32,162 nt of DNA from Limisphaerales bacterium. GTDB lineage: Bacteria; Verrucomicrobiota; Verrucomicrobiia; Limisphaerales; UBA11358. Positions 2,793-3,861 of this stretch are shown here, piece after piece. Position 1 is the stretch's first letter, and every line of letters begins with the position of its first letter. The stretch is taken from contig PLHK01000099.1 of the NCBI GenBank assembly GCA_003139955.1, forward strand, positions 8,848 to 41,009, given 5' to 3'. The notes under the pieces were generated by a model. It searched no databases, was not told where the DNA came from, and worked only from the letters and a program-made list of their open reading frames with translations. Position numbers and translations under genes: made by a program.

Positions 2793-2821
2793 AGTTTGCC
2801 TCATCGTGAAAAATTTCACAA
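2793..2821 (-). promoter_or_regulatory. Candidate atp promoter with overlapping Rex-like operator
   Basis: At 2804-2821 the plus strand reads TCGTGAA-AAAT-TTCACAA. This differs at one position from the TTGTGAA-N4-TTCACAA site bound by Rex, the NADH/NAD+-sensing repressor. On the minus strand the half-site TTGTGA (2821-2816) can serve as a -35. With a 17-bp spacer it leads to a weak -10, CAAACT (2798-2793), about 35-70 bp upstream of the candidate atpB starts. The inverted repeat is seen directly. The link to Rex comes from the family consensus. No rex gene lies in this window. Confidence 0.5.
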
Positions 2822-3012: not shown

Positions 3013-3861
3013 CTACGTCGAGATGAAAAACTTTTGCCGCAACGATTCCGGCGTTTCGCCGAGTTCGCGCAATTTCCGCAGACTCAAGGCGTCGTGTCGC
3101 TTGGCCAGCCGCTCGCCTTTTTTGTCCAGCATCAGCGCGCAATGAAAAAATTTCGGCGGCGTCAAACCGAGCGCGCGATAAATTAAAATCTGCCGCGCGG
3201 TGCTGACCAACAAATCCGCACCGCGCACGACTTCGGAAATTTCCATCGCCGCATCGTCCGCGACACACGCGAGTTGATACGCCGGAACGTCGTCGTGCCG
3301 CCAGACGACAAAATCGCCAAAATCTTTTCCGGCAACGAATTTTTGTTCGCCAGAATTTCCGTCTTCGAAGGAGATCGTCTCGCCGTCGGGAACGCGGAAG
3401 CGCCAGCTTAACTTCCGATTTCCGATTTCCGACTCCCGATTTTGCCGGCACGTTCCGGGATAAATCGGCTCGTCATCGTCGTTCGCGTGTGGCGCGCGCG
3501 TGGCGGCCAGAATGTCCTTGCGCGAGCAGGTGCAGGGATAGATAAAATTTCCGGCGCGCAAATTTTCCAGCGCGGCGCGATAGAAGTTCATCCGCTCGCT
3601 TTGATTGTATGGCGCAAATTTTCCGCCAATGTCCGGGCCTTCGCTCCACTCAAAACCGAACCAGCGCAAATCCTCAAGCATCGCGTCCACGAATTCCATT
3701 TTGAAGCGCGTCGCGTCCAAATCTTCGTTGCGTAAAATCAGTTCGCCACCGTTTGCTTTTGCGCGTTGCTGCGCGACCCAAAACGTCCGCGCGTGGCCGA
3801 GGTGCAAATAACCCGTCGGCGATGGCGCGAGGCGTCCGCGATATTTTTCAAAATGGCTCAT
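3013..3861 (-). CDS. gluQ: Glutamyl-queuosine tRNA(Asp) synthetase
   Basis: GluQ is a truncated glutamyl-tRNA synthetase paralogue that attaches glutamate to queuosine at the wobble position of tRNA(Asp). The 282-aa protein has the class I signature HLGH (20-23) and RLAKR in place of KMSKS (251-255). It has the family zinc site Cys110/Cys112/Tyr134/Cys138 (YPCTC ... YPGTC). It lacks the C-terminal anticodon-binding domain, as expected. Residues 141-150 (NRESEIGNRK) are encoded by a tandem heptamer array just after the last zinc ligand. The gene overlaps the RmlD-like gene by 14 bp and ends in TAG, the only intact gene here seen to do so. Confidence 0.93.
   Translation of the reverse strand: MSHFEKYRGRLAPSPTGYLHLGHARTFWVAQQRAKANGGELILRNEDLDATRFKMEFVDAMLEDLRWFGFEWSEGPDIGGKFAPYNQSERMNFYRAALENLRAGNFIYPCTCSRKDILAATRAPHANDDDEPIYPGTCRQNRESEIGNRKLSWRFRVPDGETISFEDGNSGEQKFVAGKDFGDFVVWRHDDVPAYQLACVADDAAMEISEVVRGADLLVSTARQILIYRALGLTPPKFFHCALMLDKKGERLAKRHDALSLRKLRELGETPESLRQKFFIST
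3413..3440 (-). repeat. Heptamer array inside gluQ
   Basis: Four 7-bp units run across 3413-3440 on the plus strand (TTCCGAT, TTCCGAT, TTCCGAC, TCCCGAT). On the coding strand these read as GAAATCG-type heptads. They encode the polar stretch NRESEIGNRK without a stop. They share period and shape with arrays at 13211, 17496, 19141 and 22418. Confidence 0.85.

Follow-up and report, generated by a model that had tools for sequence, protein, structure and literature searches.

Upstream of its ATP synthase genes, this uncultured Limisphaerales bacterium carries an 18-nt palindrome, TCGTGAAAAATTTCACAA, at positions 2804–2821 of the analyzed stretch (32,162 nucleotides, hereafter the window), exactly as given in a previous sequence-only reading, and the question that it raises is whether the atp operon could be controlled from this site by the NADH-sensing repressor Rex. 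The likeness to a Rex operator (ROP) proposed in that reading was borne out, as the palindrome differs from the consensus TTGTGAANNNNTTCACAA at a single one of the 14 fixed positions; on the minus strand, which encodes atpB, it reads TTGTGAAATTTTTCACGA, and its sole departure from the consensus is a G for an A at the penultimate base. Around 0.005 sites with up to one mismatch would be expected in the window (equal base frequencies), and a scan of the whole genome (2.79 Mb, ~92% complete) returned 22 matches with up to two mismatches versus 4 for the reversed control pattern. Perfect copies of the operator were present at two other places in the same genome. Based on this single mismatch and on its conservation before atpB, described below, the palindrome, to which no strand was assigned, can with high probability be regarded as a site bound by Rex. 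The other genomic matches with two mismatches were set aside, since those inspected were mostly within coding frames and their centre was not conserved. An extended palindrome (TGC...GGCA) was also dismissed, as inspection of the promoter alignment by eye showed it to be asymmetric about the centre, and it was read as promoter sequence.

The operator is located in the intergenic region between a glutamyl-tRNA synthetase-like gene (3013–3861, PF00749; GluQ-type by length, hence a putative GluQ) and atpB, both on the minus strand, ~80 nt upstream of the likely atpB start. The atp operon, with the gene order atpB, atpE, atpF, and atpH on this same strand, begins with the gene for subunit a of the F0F1 ATP synthase (atpB, 1797–2723, matched by ATP synthase subunit A models along these positions), whose start was placed at a TTG at position 2723 from the comparison with relatives; the longest frame starts at 2759, and PF00119 scores 145.6 bits on this 1797–2759 frame. 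Then come atpE (subunit c, 1507–1887, PF00137; a listed frame with its true start probably inside), atpF (subunit b, 1011–1499, PF00430), and atpH (subunit delta, 560–1045, PF00213). Overlap of the palindrome with a candidate −35 of atpB, also claimed from the sequence, agrees with our analysis: the hexamer TTGTGA (2821–2816, minus strand), a perfect operator half-site, is found 17 nt from a candidate −10 hexamer CAAACT (2798–2793, minus strand). Judged by its agreement with the sigma-70 consensus, this is a weak promoter (7 of 12 positions), and a generic scan for promoters and terminators reported none of either. We assigned it to atpB because TTGTGA, the 17-nt spacing, and a GGCAnnnT motif at −10 are conserved across relatives. 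An alignment of 28 promoters yielded the consensus CTTGTGAAWWWTTTCACGAT.AGGCA..tT, in which the GGCA and the T of this family −10 motif are kept. In the same intergenic region, a GC-rich sequence at 2910–2945 (GGGGCGAGCGTCCTCGCGAGCCGGCTCG) is reminiscent of a dispersed repeat.

Conservation of the inverted repeat in relatives, on which the sequence-only reading had made its claim depend, was extensive: among the 24 genus members with an atpB gene, this genome included, 23 keep a site with up to two mismatches upstream of it, usually in the asymmetric form with CACGA. Beyond the genus, the operator precedes atpB in further verrucomicrobial families and orders too. Of 80 further atpB loci, more than half have it, and these positives belong to subdivision 3, Chthoniobacteraceae, and additional Verrucomicrobiota, among them the cultured Chthoniobacter flavus Ellin428, which also carries a rex gene. 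In a relative lacking rex (G032, locus L051), a degenerate version of the site, TTGTGGAATTTTTTACAA, is found before atpB, which suggests decay of the operator following the loss of rex.

A search for the regulator itself, whose absence would have spoken against the proposal, identified one rex gene in this genome. The encoded protein consists of a winged helix (wHTH) domain (PF06971) and a NAD-binding Rossmann domain (PF02629) and scores above the cut-off of the NCBIfam equivalog NF003993 (236 bits). All the relatives found for it in the PDB are Rex proteins, one of them deposited under the older name of AT-rich DNA-binding protein. Compared with the 12 residues described as contacting DNA in Thermotoga maritima Rex (PDB 7WB3, PMC8836258), 11 are identical, including the four base readers R48, K49, R60, and G61, and the single difference corresponds to Ser52, which was called variable in the same work; the row for the T. 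maritima protein was taken from the PDB-match alignment, and its first four residues, added by hand, play no part in the comparison. The GxGxxG motif of NAD binding and Tyr100 are conserved as well. In contrast to this likeness, Asp191, the bonding partner of Tyr100 when T. maritima Rex is in its NADH form (PMC8836258), is replaced by Asn in all the Rex proteins of the genus that were read (L016, L084–L091), whereas it is retained in those of two other verrucomicrobial families (L193 and L194; genomes G226 and G217). As this is a residue of the switch, the response to NADH in the genus could differ from that of the characterized protein.

The presence of rex and that of the sites were associated in the same direction in three sets of genomes, although the p-values given here are too small and overstate the evidence, because the genomes are related by a tree and are not independent. 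In a survey of the class comprising 78 genomes besides this one, with rex scored above the cut-off, the eight rex-positive genomes all carry 6–11 sites, versus no sites in 66 of the 70 rex-negative ones and a single site in the other four (p = 2e-8). Among 50 hand-chosen genomes (31 loci without the operator plus a selection of 19 with it), rex was present in 18 of the 19 with an operator before atpB and in 4 of the 31 without it (p = 7e-9); in these four rex-positive genomes, no operator was found across the whole retrieved atpB locus. The link was weaker among the 40 nearest genomes, where a site was detected in 29/32 rex-positive and 3/8 rex-negative genomes (p = 0.004), the latter three being draft assemblies. 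Many genomes from other classes of the phylum encode a rex-type gene but lack operators of this kind, which raises the possibility that their Rex recognizes a different operator or regulates different targets.

The suggestion that the same site should be looked for before nuo, cyd, or ldh gave a positive result at nuoB and led beyond it to the cytochrome oxidase and alternative complex III (ACIII) operons. In this genome, perfect or near-perfect copies precede nuoB, the alternative complex III operon, a class V aminotransferase gene, and a cytochrome oxidase operon made up of a carboxypeptidase-regulatory-like gene, ctaA, ctaB, and coxA. NuoB of this genome, as well as NuoD, was identified by NCBIfam and the remaining Nuo subunits by Pfam; the label of alternative complex III is based on an NrfD-family subunit and on the reading of an ActB-like N-terminus, as the operon matched no curated ACIII model. 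A copy of this kind, CTGTGAAAAATTTCACAG (L020:5803–5820), also precedes a gene for an OmpR-type response regulator, which may belong to the regulon as well. Most sites in two distant rex-positive genomes precede nuoB, nuoD, nuoF, nuoG, nuoH, ACIII, atpB, a polyprenyl synthetase gene, and an NDH-2-like gene. The last of these passed no NDH-2 equivalog and was so labelled because it encodes a pyridine nucleotide-disulphide oxidoreductase domain and from sequence reading. An operator is also present upstream of rex itself in several relatives; before the rex gene of this genome, a half-site was detected and no full operator. Since the same protein and operator would serve all these operons, the aerobic chain and the ATP synthase would constitute one NADH-responsive regulon, and in these bacteria, the entire respiratory chain and ATP synthase seem to be under Rex control. 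Both here and in relatives, fewer than 10 nt separate the end of the class V aminotransferase operator (L018:6869–6886) from the start codon, so that a Shine–Dalgarno sequence would hardly fit between them.

Taken together, these data make it quite likely that the palindrome is a Rex operator through which the atp operon would be repressed in the NAD+ state and released by NADH, as part of a shared respiratory regulon. When NAD+ predominates, a Rex dimer would bind the palindrome at 2804–2821 and cover the −35 and spacer of the candidate atpB promoter, in such a way that RNA polymerase would be kept off the atp operon; a rise in NADH would make Rex leave the operator, allowing expression. Complex I, alternative complex III, cytochrome oxidase, and the class V aminotransferase would be governed by the same pair of protein and operator. 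Exclusion of the polymerase would follow here from the position of the site, and Rex binding, release by NADH, and repression are extrapolated from characterized Rex proteins. Elsewhere, the operator stops short of the probable −35, which likely begins with a TTG: it ends 4–7 nt upstream at the cox, nuo, ACIII, and rex promoters, and 4–8 nt upstream when one group of atpB promoters is counted as well. Occlusion would be less direct at these promoters, and activation there is conceivable.

Control of ATP synthase by Rex is already known. In Streptomyces avermitilis, Rex binds an operator before atpI, TTGTGATACGGTTCACGA, from −50 to −22, its binding is lowered by NADH, and atpI, which it represses, is upregulated in a rex deletion (PMC5355995). 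This operator has the same asymmetric form as the one described here (TTGTGA...TTCACGA) and also covers the −35 region, and Rex operators precede the nuo and rex operons of S. avermitilis as well as atp (PMC5355995). The two systems differ in that the oxidase target of S. avermitilis is cytochrome bd and its rex gene is cotranscribed with hem genes (PMC5355995), whereas the predicted targets here include an operon for a haem-copper oxidase and the one for alternative complex III, and atpB is the first gene of the atp operon. Rex of Caldicellulosiruptor bescii and of Thermotogales also uses the operator TTGTGAANNNNTTCACAA (PMC6391272 and references therein), and class V aminotransferases of the alanine-glyoxylate or serine-pyruvate type are among its targets: C. 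bescii has a class V aminotransferase under Rex, and Thermotogales have a serine-pyruvate aminotransferase (PMC6391272); in contrast to the regulon predicted here, the other targets there are hydrogenases and fermentation genes, with no aerobic chain (PMC6391272).

Three other explanations of the palindrome were weighed against Rex repression. That it arose by chance or has a non-regulatory role, such as that of a structural element, could be argued from the shortness of a single motif beside a promoter that is weak by consensus, and it has a negligible probability in our opinion, given that the motif is near-universal before atpB despite diverging flanks and recurs at other respiratory operons. 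A regulator of the CRP/FNR type is a more serious candidate, as its consensus, TGTGA-N6-TCACA, is contained in that of Rex, and the TGTGA/CGTGA-N6-TCACA core is compatible with both families; moreover, the site is found just 5′ of the likely −35 at several targets, where activators bind, and proteins with a cNMP-binding domain are present in 40 of 40 relatives. However, the inner AA/TT of the operator, required by Rex and not by CRP, is conserved, relatives have the operator upstream of rex, and across the class, the sites follow rex, whereas cNMP-domain proteins also occur in relatives devoid of both rex and sites. Searches of this genome (~92% complete) with PF13545 and PF00027 detected no regulator of this type: the only match to HTH_Crp_2 (PF13545) is a 143-aa protein that its sequence assigns as MntR/DtxR-like, and the three proteins with a cNMP-binding domain (PF00027), one resembling a histidine kinase and the others ending without an HTH, have no DNA-binding domain by sequence reading. 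As a consequence of this search, a CRP/FNR-type regulator is disfavoured, and we consider its action at this site very unlikely.

The last explanation accepts Rex as the ligand and proposes either that it activates instead of repressing or that its NADH switch was lost in the genus. The location of the operator upstream of the likely −35 at the non-atp targets would be in accordance with activation, and the Asn at position 191, unlike the residue of the two other families, with a lost switch. Against activation, the site at atpB lies over both the candidate −35 and the spacer, which is the position of a repressor, as in atpI of S. avermitilis, and the distance between site and −35 differs by 3 nt among targets, which fits occlusion better than contact by an activator. 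Thus, we regard activation or a lost switch as improbable, though less so than a CRP/FNR-type regulator, and maintain repression by Rex as the preferred reading.

What this analysis adds is the prediction of a conserved Rex regulon in Verrucomicrobiota that would include the whole respiratory chain, in a phylum for which no study of Rex was found in the open-licence full-text literature, the scope of our search. The supply of ATP synthase would be tied in this distant phylum to the redox state via an operator of a form like that of Streptomyces, and the regulon is testable in the cultured C. flavus Ellin428. It can be speculated further, with considerable doubt, that Rex of Verrucomicrobiota might be a single master switch for the entire aerobic chain, comprising complex I, alternative complex III, haem-copper oxidase, and ATP synthase, with its NADH switch retuned in the genus by the change from Asp to Asn and the atpB promoter rebuilt in such a way that an operator half-site serves as its −35. 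Finally, extra Rex-type genes were observed in some relatives (G006, G002, G003, G017, and G021), often as a divergent pair beside a perfect operator, and at one locus (L066), such a gene adjoins one for a 2Fe-2S/pyridine-nucleotide oxidoreductase.
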